From Planctomycetota bacterium (GTDB lineage Bacteria; Planctomycetota; Phycisphaerae; Phycisphaerales; Phycisphaeraceae): DNA of 57,341 nucleotides. A program made the position numbers and the translations under genes. Below, in pieces: positions 14,020 to 57,341 of this stretch. The notes under the pieces are model-generated. The model saw nothing but the letters and a program-made list of their open reading frames with translations. It made no database searches and was not told the DNA's origin. Positions within the stretch are counted from its first letter, which is position 1; each line of letters opens with the position of its first letter. The DNA lies in NCBI GenBank assembly GCA_024279865.1, contig JAJRRC010000074.1, positions 1 through 57,341 on the forward strand, read 5' to 3'.

Positions 14020-14091
14020 TTCCCGGGGACACTTCCGGGGACACTTCCGGGGATGGCTCCGGGGGTAGCTCCGGGGGTAGTTCCGGGGGGG
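14020..14091 (-). repeat. family A GC-rich repeat, locus 3 (tandem array)
   Basis: At least six units stand in tandem: two spaced 12 bp (cggggacactt) and three of the form (GG)(A/C)TCCGGGGGTAG. The array ends exactly at the TAA of the Minf_1886-like gene (14092-14094 on the minus strand). It is the longest intergenic array in the window. Confidence 0.85.
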
Positions 14092-22528: not shown

Positions 22529-23887
22529 ATGATGACACAACGCTTGGGATATTTGGTTGTTTTTTGGTTTGCATGCTCGGCTGTGGTCGTGGGAGCAGAA
22601 GAAATTCGCCAAGACGACCCGCTGGTACACACAGCCCATCTATCCTTGCAAAACGGCTCGGTGTCACTGGGTGAAGTGCTTGCCCAAATGTTGGAATGGG
22701 TTGGCTTTGACGGTGGTTCTGTTCGCAAGGCAGTGACTTTACAGATTGCAGTGGCCGGGCCCGCAGGCAAGATTCAATTGCAACAGCTTGAAAAAGTGAC
22801 CGATGGCATTGTGCGATTCAAGGTTGATGCCACGCAATTAACATTGACGTTGGACCGGGTGGCTTTGCGTGCCAAAGAAAAACAGATTCGTCATCAGGTG
22901 CGGGTTTTCATGGAGCAGTGGTTCCCTGAGCAGGCCGCGGCAGCTCGAATGCAATATGGCTTGCGGGTGGTGAGACCCAATGGTCAGCGATCTGAGTTGC
23001 CCCATCATTTTGCCATTGAATATGCGGTGGTTCTGGTGCATGGGATTGATGAGCCGGGGGATATTTGGGATTCACTCATCCCGCATTTGCAAAAAGCAGG
23101 CTACACCGCCATTGAATTTTTTTATCCCAATGATCAGCCGATTGTAGATAGTGCAAAATTGCTGGCTGTCGAGTTGGCTCGCTTGCGAGGATTAGGTATT
23201 GAGCAGGTGAGCTTGGTGTCTCACAGCATGGGTGGGCTGGTCTGTCGTGAAATGCTGACCTCCCCAGAAGCCCCCCCGGAAATTTCGGATACCGAACTCA
23301 CACTCCCGGGGGCACTTCCGGGGGGGCTTCCGGGGGTGGATCGGTTGATTATGGTGGGAACGCCCAATGGGGGTTCGTCGTTGGCTCCTTTGCGTTTGGT
23401 GGGGGAGATGCGTGAGCAGGTGATTCGGTATTTTTCGGGTGATGGCGGGTTGTTTGGGTCGATGTTTGATGGTGCGGGTGAAGCTCAGGTGGATTTGTTG
23501 CCTGGGAGTTCTTTTTTGCGTACGCTCAATGCGAGACCTCATCCTGCGGGGGTGCATTACACTTCGATTGCGGGGATCGCCAGTCCGATTAGCGAAGCAA
23601 AAATTCGTCAGTGGGATCGCCAGGCAAAGGGGTATTTAAGCAAGCAAGGCCAAGCGATGGCATTGGCGTTGCGTGGTGCGTTGGCGGGATTGGTGCGTGG
23701 GGTGGGGGATGGTTGTGTGAGCCTTGCATCTACCCGGTTGGCAGGGGTGACGGATCATGTCACTGTCGAGGCGAACCATCGCACGCTTTTGCGACAGGTT
23801 GGCCCCTTTGGCGAAGAGGTGCCTGTGGCGATTCCGATTATTTTGGATCGGCTGTCAGACAAATCTCGTGCATTACCTGTGCGTTAG
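22529..23887 (+). CDS. secreted alpha/beta-hydrolase (lipase-like)
   Basis: The start at 22529 follows GGAAGG and gives a clean signal peptide (LGYLVVFWFACSAVVVGAEE). After a ~130-residue N-terminal region, an alpha/beta-hydrolase fold begins with VVLVHGIDEPGDIWDSLIPHL (oxyanion-type HG). The nucleophile Ser is in LVSHSMGGLVCREML (about residue 232). MVGTPNGGSSLAPL is typical of triacylglycerol and PGAP1-like lipases; the catalytic His may be the one in VEANHRTLLRQ. A family A insert adds about 23 residues (APPEIS...LPGALPGGLPG) between the nucleophile helix and the next strand. It has 452 residues. Substrate unknown. Confidence 0.82.
   Translation: MMTQRLGYLVVFWFACSAVVVGAEEIRQDDPLVHTAHLSLQNGSVSLGEVLAQMLEWVGFDGGSVRKAVTLQIAVAGPAGKIQLQQLEKVTDGIVRFKVDATQLTLTLDRVALRAKEKQIRHQVRVFMEQWFPEQAAAARMQYGLRVVRPNGQRSELPHHFAIEYAVVLVHGIDEPGDIWDSLIPHLQKAGYTAIEFFYPNDQPIVDSAKLLAVELARLRGLGIEQVSLVSHSMGGLVCREMLTSPEAPPEISDTELTLPGALPGGLPGVDRLIMVGTPNGGSSLAPLRLVGEMREQVIRYFSGDGGLFGSMFDGAGEAQVDLLPGSSFLRTLNARPHPAGVHYTSIAGIASPISEAKIRQWDRQAKGYLSKQGQAMALALRGALAGLVRGVGDGCVSLASTRLAGVTDHVTVEANHRTLLRQVGPFGEEVPVAIPIILDRLSDKSRALPVR
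23270..23338 (+). repeat. family A GC-rich repeat, locus 9 (inside lipase-like gene)
   Basis: One CCCCCCCGGAA unit, a 20-bp spacer, then CTCCCGGGGGCACTTCCGGGGGGGCTTCC-type units in the opposite orientation, forming a potential large hairpin. It is 69 bp (23 codons) long and keeps the reading frame. Confidence 0.82.
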
Positions 23888-26490: not shown

Positions 26491-28179
26491 ATGTCAGAAC
26501 AGAGCCCCCCCGGCTCCCCCGGCTCCCCCGGCTCCCCCGGCTCCCCCGGCCCACGTAAGCCCAATGTGATTTTAATTGTGATGGATGATTTGGCTTGGGG
26601 AGATTTGGCTTGTCATGAAAATCCTTATACAAGAACGCCGAACCTTGATGCGATGCATGGGCAATCTGCCCGGCTGACGCGCTATTGTTCAGGACCGTTA
26701 TGTACGCCAGCTCGGGCGAGTTTGATGACCGGTCGATACCCTTATCGCACTCGTGCGATTGATACTTATTGCGGCCGTAGCATGATGGACCCCGATGAAG
26801 TCACCCTCGCAGAAGTGTTACGCCAGGCAGACTATCGCACCGGCATTTTTGGGAAGTGGCATCTCGGTGACTGTTACCCAACGCGTGCGATGGATTTTGG
26901 TTTTGAAGAATCTTTGGTGCATAACGGCGGTGGATTACGCCAAGCAGCCAACTTGGGCCATGACAGTTATTTTGACCCCGACCTGATGCACAACGGCCAA
27001 TTGGTTCCCTCCAAGGGTTATTGCACCGATATCTTCACCGATGCAGCGATGGCCTTTATTGAAGAAAAAAAAGACGATCCTTTCTTTGTCTATCTCGCAA
27101 CCAACGCGCCGCATTGCCCTTTTGAAATTGATAAAAAATGGGTCAAGCCCTATCGGGACATGGGGCTCAACGACAAGTACGCACGTATCTATGGCATGGT
27201 GGAAAACATTGACATGAACGTCGGACGTGTACTCGATCAACTTGACGCGCTAAACCTTGCTGACGATACCATTGTGATTTACACCAGTGATCATGGGCCT
27301 TGCCCCTCGGCAACCCATGAGGGAAAAATTCGCTTTAACGCAGGATTGCGGGATATCAAAGGAACCATGTACGAAGGGGGCATTCGGGTTCCTTGTTTTT
27401 GGCGATGGCCTGGGCATTTTAAAGCTGGCCTCGATGTGGATCGGATTACCAATCCCATTGATCTGCTTCCGACGTTGGTGAATTGTTGTGACGCTGCGTT
27501 GCCAGGGGATCGTACGATTGATGGGGCAGATATCACAAGTTTGCTGAGCGAAGATTCAGATACAGGGTCATGGCCTGACCGAACTTTGTTTATGCAGTGG
27601 CATCGTGGGGATGTACCCAAGCAGTATTACAACTACGCGGTGATTGAACAGCAGTACAAGTTGTATCGTCATGACGAAGATCCTGACGCGGAGCTTTATG
27701 ACATTGAAAATGATCCATCGGAACAGCACGATCTTGCGTCACAAGAACCCACTCGTGTGGATGGGATGCGTCAACGTTATGACGCATGGTTTGAAGATGT
27801 TTCAAATACACGGGGCAAAGACAACTACGCACCGCCACGTATTTATCTTGGGACTGAGCACCATACGGTCCTGACCCGTCAGGATTGGCGTGTGCATGGG
27901 ACCGATGGTTGGGATGACAGTCTGTTTGGTTATTGGGAAACCCTGCTGGTAGAACCCGGCACGCATCAGGCCACCATTCGTTTTACGCAAACGTCACAGC
28001 AGGCAGTGGTTGTTCTGCAATTCAACGAACAGTGTTATGAAGCAACGGTTCCTGCTGAGGCCAGTTCTTGTCAGATCACTTTGGCGGACCTGTCTGTGGG
28101 CCCTTGTCGCGTTGAATCTTGGGTCCAAACCCCAGAATGTCGCATTTCCAGCAAGTCCATTGAATGGGTCAAGCTTTGA
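26491..28179 (+). CDS. type I sulfatase (Cys-type) with GSP-repeat N-terminus
   Basis: A sulfatase of 562 residues. The signature CTPAR (Cys71-Arg75) is followed by ASLMTGRYPYRTR, and metal ligands lie in LIVMDDLAWGD and YTSDHGP. Length and the C-terminal beta part (HQATIRFTQTSQQAVVVLQ) are ordinary. Residues 5-21 are SPPGSPGSPGSPGSPGP, coded by a family A array, inserted before the first beta strand. There is no signal peptide, so it should be cytoplasmic. AAAGG lies 9 bases before ATG at 26491. Activation needs the maturase at 39368-40747. The substrate is probably a sulfated sugar. Confidence 0.92.
   Translation: MSEQSPPGSPGSPGSPGSPGPRKPNVILIVMDDLAWGDLACHENPYTRTPNLDAMHGQSARLTRYCSGPLCTPARASLMTGRYPYRTRAIDTYCGRSMMDPDEVTLAEVLRQADYRTGIFGKWHLGDCYPTRAMDFGFEESLVHNGGGLRQAANLGHDSYFDPDLMHNGQLVPSKGYCTDIFTDAAMAFIEEKKDDPFFVYLATNAPHCPFEIDKKWVKPYRDMGLNDKYARIYGMVENIDMNVGRVLDQLDALNLADDTIVIYTSDHGPCPSATHEGKIRFNAGLRDIKGTMYEGGIRVPCFWRWPGHFKAGLDVDRITNPIDLLPTLVNCCDAALPGDRTIDGADITSLLSEDSDTGSWPDRTLFMQWHRGDVPKQYYNYAVIEQQYKLYRHDEDPDAELYDIENDPSEQHDLASQEPTRVDGMRQRYDAWFEDVSNTRGKDNYAPPRIYLGTEHHTVLTRQDWRVHGTDGWDDSLFGYWETLLVEPGTHQATIRFTQTSQQAVVVLQFNEQCYEATVPAEASSCQITLADLSVGPCRVESWVQTPECRISSKSIEWVKL
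26503..26552 (+). repeat. family A variant repeat, locus 10 (9-bp units in sulfatase)
   Basis: Five CTCCCCCGG-type units of exactly 9 bp code (Gly-Ser-Pro)n at the sulfatase N-terminus. The same 9-bp unit on the other strand appears at 50109-50155. Confidence 0.85.
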
Positions 28180-49173: not shown

Positions 49174-50307
49174 TTACAGTCGTCCGAATTGTTTGATCAG
49201 TGACATGATGCGTGGCTGGTTGGAGTCGATTTCGATACTGCGTTGCCAGGCGTGCATGGCCTGATTTTGATGGCGGATGATACGTCGGTTACTTTGAATG
49301 TATTGGGTCATCATGCAAACGCCGATGCCGTTGAGGGCTGCGGTATCGTTGGGGTCGAAGAGCAGGGCAGCGCGAAATTGTCGGAGTGCTTTACTGTGTT
49401 GGCGGTCTTTGAATAACGCATAGCCCATGCGTTCATGGGCCAGGGCACTGGGCGCGATTTGCAGGACGGTTCGCAGGACTGCCATGGCCCGGTCGTAATG
49501 GTCTAGCCGATTGTGCGCCTCGGCCAATCCAAGCAGGATCGGCTCCGCAGGATCGCCTAGCTCATTGGCTTGTCGATACGCACCGATGGCTTTGTTGTAC
49601 AGTTTCATGAGACTATAAGAAGTCCCCAGATTGGCCCAGGCGTTTTGGCTATCGGGGTCAATTTTAGATGCGGTGCGTGCGTAGACCACTGCTTGGGCAG
49701 GACGGCCCAGTTGTAGATAGCAGGAGGCCAAGTGGTGGTTGGCATTGAAATCTTCAGGGTCAATCGCCAGTGCATAGAGGTAGGCTCGGATCGCCAGTTC
49801 AAATTTTTCGAGTAGTTGCCTCATGCGTGCGAGGTAGTAGTGTGCTTCAAAGCTGGTGGGGGCGAGGCGGGTGGCCTGTTCAAATCGAGCTTCAGCTTCT
49901 TGGGGGTTTCCCAGTTCCTGATGCACTTTGCCTGCTCCGAGGTAGGCGTCGAGTAACTTGGGGTTTTCGAGAATGGCTTCATCGAAGGTCATCAACGCAT
50001 TTTTCAGTTCACCTGCTGCCACTTGTGCCTGGGCATCGGCAAGGAGCAATTGGTCACGGGTCAGCACCGGCGGCTGAGAGATCGCAATGGCAACCGGTTG
50101 ATTGGCGTTGGGGGAACCGGGGGAGCCGGGGGAGCCGGGGGAGCCGGGGGATTGAATGTTTTCAGAAGGAAGATTCCCGGTAGCCTGAGGATTTTCTGAA
50201 GGAAAGCTTCCGGGGGTGGGACGGGGCGTGAGAGAGCTACAGCCAGTTGCCAGTAGAATGGCCAGGGCTCCGCCCATTGCATAAATTAGCGCTTCCTTGC
50301 GCATCAT
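49174..50307 (-). CDS. TPR lipoprotein with Pro/Gly/Ser-rich linker
   Basis: The N-terminus EALIYAMGGALAILLATGC ends in a lipobox Cys, so the protein should be membrane-anchored. Residues 29-66 are low complexity (TPGSFPSENPQATGNLPSENIQSPGSPGSPGSPGSP), coded by family A units. Residues 85-375 hold about seven TPR units (e.g. ALMTFDEAILENPKLLDAYLGAGK, AVVYARTASKIDPDSQNAWANLG, ALRQFRAALLFDPNDTAALNGIG). I use the first of two adjacent ATGs (50307). It has 377 residues. It may assemble an envelope complex; partners unknown. It lies upstream of ackA on the same strand, across a family D element. Confidence 0.85.
   Translation of the reverse strand: MMRKEALIYAMGGALAILLATGCSSLTPRPTPGSFPSENPQATGNLPSENIQSPGSPGSPGSPGSPNANQPVAIAISQPPVLTRDQLLLADAQAQVAAGELKNALMTFDEAILENPKLLDAYLGAGKVHQELGNPQEAEARFEQATRLAPTSFEAHYYLARMRQLLEKFELAIRAYLYALAIDPEDFNANHHLASCYLQLGRPAQAVVYARTASKIDPDSQNAWANLGTSYSLMKLYNKAIGAYRQANELGDPAEPILLGLAEAHNRLDHYDRAMAVLRTVLQIAPSALAHERMGYALFKDRQHSKALRQFRAALLFDPNDTAALNGIGVCMMTQYIQSNRRIIRHQNQAMHAWQRSIEIDSNQPRIMSLIKQFGRL
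50109..50220 (-). repeat. family A repeat, locus 12 (9-bp array plus single unit)
   Basis: 50109-50155 holds four or five 9-bp GGGGGAGCC-type units, and 50205-50220 holds one GCTTCCGGGGGTG unit. All code for the lipoprotein linker, in frame. Confidence 0.85.
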
Positions 50308-55217: not shown

Positions 55218-55694
55218 ATGCCCCGAAAGTTTACACACTCTGAAGCCCAGCTTCGCCCTGATCCACGCTATAACAGCAAGGTCTTGTCACGTTTCATCAA
55301 CTGCATCATGCTAGACGGCAAAAAAGCGGTCGCTCAACGTGTGGTTTACAATGCTTTGGAAGAAATTGAAAAGCGGACCAAAGGCGCTCCCACTGCCATT
55401 GAAGTCTTCAATCTGGCGATTGAGAACGTGCTTCCGACTGTGGAAGTTCGATCCCGCCGCGTCGGTGGTGCCAACTATCAGGTTCCAATGCAAGTTAAGC
55501 CCAAGCGTCGTCAGAGTCTGGCCTTCCGCTGGATTATCAAAGCGGTTCGTGCTGAAAAAGGCAAGCCCATGCACTTGCGTCTCGCTCGTGAATTGATGGA
55601 TGCCTCTCATAGCGAAGGCAAAGCCATGAACACCCGTGAACAGACCCACCGTATGGCAGAAGCCAACCGTGCGTTCTCTCACTTTGCTTGGTAA
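55218..55694 (+). CDS. rpsG: 30S ribosomal protein S7
   Basis: S7 starts assembly of the 30S head and touches E-site tRNA. It has 158 residues with RPDPRYNSKVLSRFINCIMLDGKKAVAQRVVYNALEEI, VEVRSRRVGGANYQVPMQVKPKRRQSLAFRWII and MNTREQTHRMAEANRAFSHFAW at the end, all typical. A GAGG precedes ATG at 55218, which lies 50 bp after rpsL. The unit stops here: the next element is a SAM riboswitch. Confidence 0.98.
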   Translation: MPRKFTHSEAQLRPDPRYNSKVLSRFINCIMLDGKKAVAQRVVYNALEEIEKRTKGAPTAIEVFNLAIENVLPTVEVRSRRVGGANYQVPMQVKPKRRQSLAFRWIIKAVRAEKGKPMHLRLARELMDASHSEGKAMNTREQTHRMAEANRAFSHFAW

Positions 55695-55765
55695 AATATA
55701 AATATTCCAATGGGCCATCAACGGGGCCTGCAGTTTTACCGTTGAGACAAAATAATACAAGATTC

Positions 55766-55915
55766 GTCGTCTCTTATTGAGAGTGGCTGAGGGATAGGGC
55801 CCTTTGACGCCACCGCAACCGCCTTAGGTTTTAAGGAAATGGTGCGAACTCCCTCCTCGCAGCAGGATGCTTTAGGTAGCATCATTTTGCTGATCGGGGA
55901 AAAATGGGATGCGGC
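55766..55915 (+). ncRNA. SAM-I (S-box) riboswitch
   Basis: The aptamer core is nearly canonical: GAGAGTGGCTGAGGGATAGGGCCC, then TTTGACGCCACCGCAACC (P2 GTGGC/GCCAC, kink-turn and P3), and AAGGAAATGGTGCGAACTCCC before P4. P1 forms from GTCGTCTCTTATT (55766-55778) and AATGGGATGCGGC (55903-55915) with wobbles. It is followed by a terminator at 55938-55980, so high S-adenosylmethionine should switch off the threonine synthase gene downstream. Confidence 0.9.
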
Positions 55916-55937
55916 AACCATTCAATCCAACGAATGC

Positions 55938-55980
55938 AAGCCCCCTCCTTTTTTTCATAAAAGAGATGGGGCTTTTTTTT
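55938..55980 (+). terminator. riboswitch-controlled terminator
   Basis: AAGCCCC (55938 on) pairs with GGGGCTT before a run of eight T. It is the expression platform of the SAM-I element. Confidence 0.9.
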
Positions 55981-56063
55981 GAGCGAGCGGCTATTCACCA
56001 GGAGCCGTCACCAAGAAAAAATATCGAAAACGGATAACGGATAAAAATGAAGGACGTTATACG

Positions 56064-57323
56064 ATGAGCTATGTGAAATGTTTGAAAAGTAGAGAGTCCG
56101 GGGTCGAATATCCCATCGAGCCACGCACCGTATGTGATTTGGATTTTAGTCCGGTGGAAGTGGATTACGACTATGAAGCCATGAAAGGCAAGGTCACCCG
56201 TGAATCCATCGAGGCGGGGCCTTTGTCACTTTGGCGTTATAAGGATTTACTTCCGATTGAAGGCGAACCTCGCACGGGGTTTCATTCAGGGTGGACGCCG
56301 TTGATCAGGGCGGATCGCTTGGCCGCTGAACTAGGCGTTAAAGAACTCTATATCAAAGATGACAGTGCCAACTATCCTTCCTTTAGTTATAAGGATCGGG
56401 TGGTCAGTGTGGCCATTACCAAAGCGTTTGAATTTGGCTTTGATACCGTGGGTTGCGCTTCAACAGGCAACTTGGCACACAGCGTGGCGGCCCATGCAGC
56501 AGCGTCTGGCTTGAACGCTTTTGTGATGGTCCCCGATGACCTTGAAGAAGGCAAGATGGTCGGTATGACCGTGTTCGGCCCAAAGGTTGTTCGCATCAAA
56601 GGCAACTATGACGATGTGAATCGTCTTTGCTCTCAGATTGTAGACAAATACAACTGGGCCATTGTGAACGTCAACCTGCGTCCCTTCTACACCGAAGGCG
56701 CTAAAACCCATGGCTACGAAATCGCAGAACAAATGGGCTGGAAACTCCCTCGCCACACCATTGTCCCCGTGGCAGGTGGAACGATCCTTCCCAAAGTCTA
56801 CAAAGCCTACCGCGAATTGATTGAGCTGGGCTTGGTCGAAGATAACAAGCCAGTTTTTTACGGCGCTCAAGCGGCCGGCTGTAACCCCGTGGTCAAAGCC
56901 ATCAAAGAAGGTCAAGAGCTGTTCCACCCACAAAAACCCAATACCATCGCCAAGAGCATCGCCATCGGCAATCCTGCTGATGGCTACTACGTCATCAAAG
57001 ATATCCTCCAGTCAGGCGGTTGGGGTGAGTCTGCCACCGACTCGGAAATCATCGAGGCCATCAAACTCCTCGCCAAGACCGAAGGCATCTTTACCGAGCC
57101 TGCCGGCGGAACCACGTTGGCCTGTGCGATGAAGTTGATCGCGTCCGGTCGCATCCCCAAGGATGAACCCATCTGCGTTTGTATCACAGGCAACGGCCTC
57201 AAAACCCTCGAAGTGATGCAAGGACAGTTTGAAACCCCTCCCGCAATTCCAGCTAAAATGAAAGACTTCGACGAACTGATCGCTCAAACGGAAACAACCC
57301 CCGGAAACAACCCCCGGAAGTAA
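56064..57323 (+). CDS. thrC: threonine synthase-like PLP enzyme
   Basis: A type II PLP enzyme of 419 residues that should turn O-phosphohomoserine into threonine. Marks are FHSGWTPLIRADRLA, the PLP lysine in NYPSFSYKDRVVSVAI, TVGCASTGNLAHSVAAHAAASG for phosphate binding, VPVAGGTILPKVYKAYREL, and GGTTLACAMKLI near the end. The N-terminal domain (CLKSRESGVEYPIEPRTVCDLDF) resembles long cobalamin-era threonine synthases and paralogues found in methionine clusters. Control by SAM-I is unusual for threonine and may point to a methionine role. The last nine residues (TTPGNNPRK) and the TAA come from a family A repeat. Confidence 0.9.
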   Translation: MSYVKCLKSRESGVEYPIEPRTVCDLDFSPVEVDYDYEAMKGKVTRESIEAGPLSLWRYKDLLPIEGEPRTGFHSGWTPLIRADRLAAELGVKELYIKDDSANYPSFSYKDRVVSVAITKAFEFGFDTVGCASTGNLAHSVAAHAAASGLNAFVMVPDDLEEGKMVGMTVFGPKVVRIKGNYDDVNRLCSQIVDKYNWAIVNVNLRPFYTEGAKTHGYEIAEQMGWKLPRHTIVPVAGGTILPKVYKAYRELIELGLVEDNKPVFYGAQAAGCNPVVKAIKEGQELFHPQKPNTIAKSIAIGNPADGYYVIKDILQSGGWGESATDSEIIEAIKLLAKTEGIFTEPAGGTTLACAMKLIASGRIPKDEPICVCITGNGLKTLEVMQGQFETPPAIPAKMKDFDELIAQTETTPGNNPRK

Positions 57324-57341
57324 CCCCCGGAAGTAACCCCC
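57297..57341 (+). repeat. family A GC-rich repeat, locus 14 (in thrC 3' end)
   Basis: Three CCCCCGGAA(A/G)(C/T)AA units in tandem at 12-bp spacing continue to the window edge. The thrC stop codon is the TAA inside the second unit. Confidence 0.88.

Follow-up and report, generated by a model that had tools for sequence, protein, structure and literature searches.

A SAM-I riboswitch ahead of a ThrC-like gene in a planctomycete points to a MetM/MetO-type methionine operon

The window, by which we mean the whole stretch of DNA that was analysed (57,341 nucleotides; G000:C95:1-57341), belongs to a Phycisphaeraceae-type genome of 3.42 Mb in 122 contigs that is 95.7% complete. On its forward strand two ribosomal protein genes, rpsL (S12, PF00164; 54796-55167) and rpsG (S7, PF00177; 55218-55694), are found as upstream neighbours outside the system described here. 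They are followed by a SAM-I riboswitch aptamer with helices P1-P4 (55771-55910), an intrinsic terminator (55938-55979, a stem at 55938-55974 plus a U tract) and a gene for a ThrC-like PLP enzyme of 419 amino acids (56064-57323), here called metM, whose product is predicted to be an O-phosphohomoserine-dependent homocysteine synthase. A likely ribosome-binding site, GAAGGA (56049-56054), was read from the sequence 9 nt ahead of the ATG, and the contig ends in a 13-bp tandem repeat of about four copies (57289-57341). By metM, the nearest relatives of the genome are 20 loci (L005-L023, L032) with 70-84% identity, all from metagenome genomes of Phycisphaeraceae or their kin (Planctomycetota). In 9 of these 20 the genes for S12 and S7 stand ahead of the switch, the upstream sequence of some being too short to tell.

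The original prediction, made from the letters of the window, had placed a SAM-I aptamer with a terminator directly ahead of a threonine synthase-like gene, and this description was confirmed throughout. The aptamer scores 66.6 bits with RF00162 (gathering score 44.4, E 2.2e-13) and covers model positions 1-108 of 108. It was the sole SAM-I found in the genome, where scoring took in 150 of the 269 first-look candidates. The terminator stem at 55938-55974 has a folding energy of -17.4 kcal/mol (z -3.74), and none of 200 shuffled sequences was equally stable; a simple consensus terminator scan did not list this hairpin because its stem is bulged. The product of the gene scores 216 bits with Pfam PALP and 273 bits with the NCBIfam thrC model TIGR00260 (cut-off 167), a model that does not separate MetM from ThrC, and falls below the cut-off of the PRK08197 model.

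How might this leader work? When the 3' arm of the terminator is cut off or blocked, RNAfold predicts an antiterminator (55899-55956, forward strand) in which the 3' strand of P1 pairs with the 5' arm of the terminator, and which is incompatible with P1 and with the terminator alike; forcing P1 lets the terminator form. In these thermodynamic folds of cut or constrained RNA, P1 with the terminator on the one side and the antiterminator on the other are mutually exclusive, as is usual for S-box leaders that act as off-switches. Folded in full and without ligand, the leader has a lowest-energy structure that contains the terminator and lacks P1 (-80.0 kcal/mol, against -73.1 with P1 forced). Since the unconstrained leader thus already holds the terminator without P1, the decision of the switch must fall during transcription. 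With SAM bound, P1 would form and the terminator would halt transcription; without SAM, the 3' strand of P1 would pair with the 5' arm of the terminator and metM would be read. The folding model predicts a SAM-I off-switch, in which SAM would bind and lower expression. The original prediction had named a promoter between terminator and start codon as a way past the riboswitch. A sigma-70-like promoter scan of 55400-57341 found none, where 1.5 would be expected in shuffled sequence; the scan used a single consensus, which a promoter at 55980-56064 may escape.

The structure of the leader is conserved. A terminator-like hairpin between aptamer and start codon was found in 16 of 20 Phycisphaeraceae-type leaders, namely in the window and in 15 of 19 relatives with an aptamer. 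We aligned 22 leaders: the window, 19 Phycisphaeraceae-type loci, one deltaproteobacterial locus and one from Nonomuraea. Standard pairs occupy 98.1% of the pair cells of the consensus structure, which was derived from the same 22-leader alignment on which it was scored, and 11 of its 24 pairs have changes on both sides. None of 500 shuffles reached any of the five measures, and slid controls were 40.5-48.6% paired.

Is the gene behind the switch a threonine synthase? The closest solved structures are indeed threonine synthases (best 2zsj, E 5.4e-56; also 1uim, 6cgq and 2d1f). The original prediction had proposed a search for a second thrC in the genome, and one was found: an ordinary threonine synthase on contig C79 (241 bits) carrying the stretch NPFRLEGQK. 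Within 16 kb around it no Rfam match reached its gathering score, hence no SAM-I was found there. In the window protein the corresponding stretch reads NLRPFYTEGAK and departs from the ThrC form P-Y/F-R-x-EG-x-K. The R of the ThrC stretch is present in 27 of 35 ThrC-side rows of our alignment, and the Y in 98% of MetM-side rows. By our own criterion 17 positions separate the two sides, including R206 and Y209 (98% each on the MetM side), where the ThrC side carries mostly E or N and R, respectively. The stretch around R206 and Y209 is presumably the one that binds the phosphate of the substrate, if the Thermus enzyme is taken as a guide.

For a tree, loci were picked by similarity to the window protein, regardless of riboswitch or carrier. 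In this tree (82 rows, quick IQ-TREE run with midpoint root and long-branch warnings, built without S. albulus MetM) the window protein falls in a group of 47 that is split from the other 35 with an SH-aLRT of 98. Before alignment, 60 residues were trimmed from the start of the frame that encodes the genome's own ThrC. The matched frames of L034, L052 and L066 are interrupted by stops and were entered with X; L052 aligns badly. A gene for a ThiS-like sulfur carrier, metO, adjoins the gene in 43 of 45 testable MetM-side rows (the window by way of a second contig, see below) versus none of 34 on the ThrC side; L042, L049 and L051 were omitted from this label as their contigs end. SAM-I lies upstream in 28 of the 47 MetM-side rows, the 19 without it including L023, which has no upstream sequence, and near the start in none of the 35 ThrC-side rows, where L078 has one 3.8 kb off. 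Judged from the sequences, the gene behind the riboswitch is therefore most likely metM rather than thrC. As a side observation, an archaeal homologue from Sifarchaeum (L050, 1911-3131) has a MetM-like NINIRSYYVEGSK stretch, yet it stands on the ThrC side, and no MetO was found beside it.

The original prediction had further suggested, as the second of two alternatives, that the gene is a threonine synthase paralogue within a methionine cluster continuing beyond the window, with metY or a carrier protein among the genes after position 57341. A profile built from the carriers of 12 relatives gave one match in the genome (151 bits), right where the 11.5-kb contig C52 begins. The last 33 nt of the window are identical to the first 33 nt of C52; this is the longest overlap of the two ends and lies within the 13-bp repeat, which would explain the assembly break. 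We infer that C52 follows the window from this repeat overlap and the gene order in relatives, rather than from reads. C52 opens with metO (97-393; 98 aa, PF02597 57 bits, ending PAIAGG), followed by an E1 adenylyltransferase of the ThiF/MoeB type (PF00899, 245 bits), a DinB_2 protein (1928-2512; 33 bits against a cut-off of 24.8) and a cysteine desulfurase (TIGR01977, 417 bits). This supports the second alternative: a carrier and a second thrC were found as foreseen, and an E1 besides, but metY was not, as the genome has weak partial PF01053 matches only. Short tandem arrays occur elsewhere in the window too (14046-14089, 23301-23336, 26507-26550 and 50110-50151, besides 57289-57341) and at positions 1-61 of C52. 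They have a common CCCCCGG / CCGGGGG core, a heptamer of which the two strands of the window together hold 43 copies, and one array stands at the contig break.

The gene order in close relatives had also been named as a point to look at, and it is metM-metO-E1-DinB-desulfurase, the same as in the window and C52 combined. In the Phycisphaeraceae-type loci metO is downstream of metM in 20 of 20 and E1 in 19, L005 offering too little sequence. All 18 loci with enough sequence have a DinB relative, between E1 and desulfurase or after E1, and 12 of these 18 have a desulfurase. Three histidines are invariant in all 19 DinB proteins, the one of C52 and those of 18 relatives, the latter by tblastn only. 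Tentatively, and with the odds in our own estimate rather against it, DinB with its three histidines might be an unrecognised part of thiocarboxylate transfer, and the whole might form a complete SAM-switched operon in which desulfurase, E1, DinB and MetO feed MetM. Some further arrangements of the carrier were seen in passing. In L116 (G057:C2) a 484-aa frame (1138-2592), which is followed by SAM-I, metM and another metO, holds a MetO-like carrier fused to E1 (tblastn) with a C-terminus that looks rhodanese-like by eye, and in genome G063 the MetO match lies inside a 507-aa open frame. At the deltaproteobacterial-type loci L025, L026, L029, L030 and L031 (L030 being labelled merely 'uncultured bacterium') the MetO-like protein has about 80 residues past the GG, NIL-like by eye, which would need trimming for a carrier role.

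If MetM makes homocysteine here, what other routes does the genome have? There were no matches to HcyBio/DUF39 (PF01837), and MetX gave a 19-bit fragment at best; as all 14 control genomes likewise stayed below the MetX cut-off, its absence is judged by the 19 bits. The MetB/MetY/MetZ family PF01053 gave 10 partial matches of 18-38 bits, five of them over Pfam's low cut-off. The best of these (37.7 bits) is a cysteine desulfurase, and full members of the family in relatives score 409-457 bits. The sulfhydrylase model NF006003 had no match at E 1e-30. Judged by these scores, a canonical homocysteine route seems to be absent, as far as HcyBio, MetX, PF01053 and NF006003 cover it and given that at 95.7% completeness a gene apparently absent may have been missed. 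The substrate could be supplied by a predicted homoserine kinase (TIGR02535, 463 bits, cut-off 446) as the O-phosphohomoserine source; the canonical thrB model (TIGR00191) had been tried for this kinase and gave nothing over its cut-off. A PF02574 (S-methyl_trans) match of 248 bits lies in an open frame of 1176 aa, which resembles MetH.

The linkage extends over the class. We sampled 198 genomes of the class, at least 80% complete and drawn evenly from a larger group, and counted as strong a MetO match above 100 bits (our own threshold). Strong MetO was found in 40 of the 198 genomes, and in 36 of the 40 it is preceded, at a distance of 1.3-2.6 kb, by a SAM-I of the same strand. In two of the remaining four (G006 and G112) SAM-I immediately precedes metM and metO is located elsewhere, in G058 the contig ends inside metM, and the fourth is the genome of the window. 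For sulfhydrylase-type genes NF006003 (E <= 1e-30) replaced PF01053 across the class because PF01053 also catches cysteine desulfurases. No such match was found in 31 of the 40 strong-MetO genomes versus 6 of the 158 others, among which 28 genomes with weaker MetO matches are counted (Fisher p 2.9e-22, uncorrected for kinship). Two of those six, G064 and G089, also have SAM-I ahead of metM. Among the 40, G016 and G040 carry a strong sulfhydrylase-type gene as well, and seven more carry weaker ones.

The idea that every SAM-I of the class precedes metM had to be dropped: of 74 SAM-I places, 37 have a strong MetO downstream, in a scan whose stricter filters lost weak SAM-I. Eleven of the 37 unlinked places were opened, besides the window's own genome. 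Four stand before metM (those of G006, G112, G064 and G089), three before a PF01053 enzyme and two before an alpha/beta hydrolase taken for MetX, while one (G067), where the scanned frame overlaps the aptamer, gave no family. The last stands before a PAPS reductase, its SAM-I lying at 217-321 of L108 (G109:C51). Hence nine of the 11 opened places stand ahead of a gene that probably serves homocysteine formation, whatever the route.

Taken together, we consider it highly probable (about 0.88) that the gene is metM, forming homocysteine from O-phosphohomoserine and thiocarboxylated MetO, and that it opens a methionine operon, SAM-I-metM-metO-E1-DinB-desulfurase, running from the window into C52. 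The riboswitch, its exclusive folds, the gene order in relatives, the lack of rival pathways and the class-wide linkage support this by computation. We infer the reaction that MetM carries out, the parts played by E1, DinB and desulfurase, and the co-transcription of the genes. The desulfurase would draw sulfur from cysteine; E1 would adenylate the C-terminal GG of MetO, leading to a thiocarboxylate; and MetM would swap the phosphate of O-phosphohomoserine for the sulfur of MetO to give homocysteine. A MetH-type enzyme could then methylate homocysteine, and SAM would close the loop. Hasebe et al. 2024 (Appl Environ Microbiol 90:e01247-24) reportedly found MetO to be thiocarboxylated and O-phosphohomoserine to be the substrate of MetM. 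MetM/MetO seems to be the main or only homocysteine route in this planctomycete.

Other explanations have to be weighed against this. A genuine threonine synthase under SAM control, by which SAM shifts phosphohomoserine between threonine and methionine, would agree with the TIGR00260 score above cut-off and with threonine synthases as nearest structures. Yet it leaves the adjoining carrier and E1 and the missing homocysteine enzymes unexplained, and with the second ThrC of usual NPFRLEGQK type elsewhere in the genome and the 17 differences between MetM and ThrC, R206 and Y209 among them, we regard it as very unlikely. The suggestion in the original prediction that SAM represses threonine formation is unlikely because a separate thrC exists without SAM-I in the 16 kb around it. 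A bifunctional enzyme, chiefly a homocysteine synthase that retains some threonine synthase or threonine deaminase activity, can draw on a Microcystis homologue that made threonine and deaminated threonine in vitro (PMC12172450). The authors of that work question whether it acts fully as MetM in Microcystis, which also counts against our main reading. As the genome has its own ThrC, such an extra activity would be unneeded, and we judge this still less likely.

The original prediction had also compared the locus to the route of Wolinella succinogenes. In that case a MetY-like sulfhydrylase would use the thiocarboxylated carrier, and the ThrC-like gene would be just a companion in the operon. 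A carrier and an E1 are present, and a protein-thiocarboxylate methionine route in Wolinella is on record, given by reference in PMC5764234, which also states that at least one further homocysteine pathway is still undiscovered. The genome has only weak partial PF01053 matches (the best, 37.7 bits, being the desulfurase) and no NF006003 match at E 1e-30, however, and NF006003 is likewise missing from 31 of the 40 strong-MetO genomes. This makes it the least probable of the explanations considered, and the comparison with Wolinella gives way to one with Streptomyces MetM and MetO, where the ThrC homologue itself makes homocysteine.

That route is already published, as is the SAM riboswitch before a Streptomyces metM: according to PMC12172450, MetM is a homocysteine synthase of Streptomyces (Hasebe et al.) with homologues in cyanobacteria, and S. 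albulus metM has a SAM riboswitch upstream and the Microcystis homologue none. The Microcystis MetM-like ThrC is described there as sharing 51.6% identity with S. albulus MetM and as having a metO-like gene beside it. For Bacillota, PMC12452182 gives thrC with T-box rather than SAM leaders, and SAM leaders for hom1. In the accessible text of a 2026 review (PMC13257386) the word MetM does not occur, and our literature search returned nothing joining SAM riboswitch, Planctomycetes and methionine. The present analysis seems to add three things to this: the linkage across the class, the absence of alternative routes, and a gene order that includes E1, DinB and desulfurase. A methionine riboswitch can expose misannotation: a 'thrC' after SAM-I and before a ThiS-like gene is probably a homocysteine synthase. 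Since the presence of MetO pairs with the absence of sulfhydrylase-type genes, the MetM route may explain methionine synthesis in many planctomycetes annotated as auxotrophs, and the gene order proposes E1, desulfurase and DinB as partners of the carrier.

Compared with known systems, the locus combines familiar parts. With ThrC (TIGR00260) it has in common the PALP family of PLP enzymes and the presumed substrate O-phosphohomoserine; unlike ThrC, the window protein stands in a separate tree group, has the R206/Y209 pattern and adjoins a carrier gene. With SAM-I (S-box, RF00162) leaders it has in common the full aptamer, the terminator platform and a target gene that probably makes homocysteine, whereas the target here, in contrast to the usual SAM-I, is a homologue of ThrC that annotation calls threonine synthase. 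Krishnamoorthy and Begley 2011 reportedly described for Wolinella succinogenes a route with a carrier-protein thiocarboxylate as sulfur source and MetY as synthase; the sulfur source would thus be common to both, while no MetY was found in the window's genome. An actinobacterial locus from Nonomuraea (L048), which surfaced in the same similarity search, has the same plan as the window, with no terminator-like hairpin seen after its aptamer, unlike most Phycisphaeraceae-type leaders. Beyond the carrier gene the window's locus continues with E1, DinB and a cysteine desulfurase, as it does in relatives. The closest known counterpart is MetM/MetO of S. albulus, with which the locus has in common a ThrC-like enzyme, an adjoining gene for a ThiS-like carrier and an upstream SAM riboswitch.
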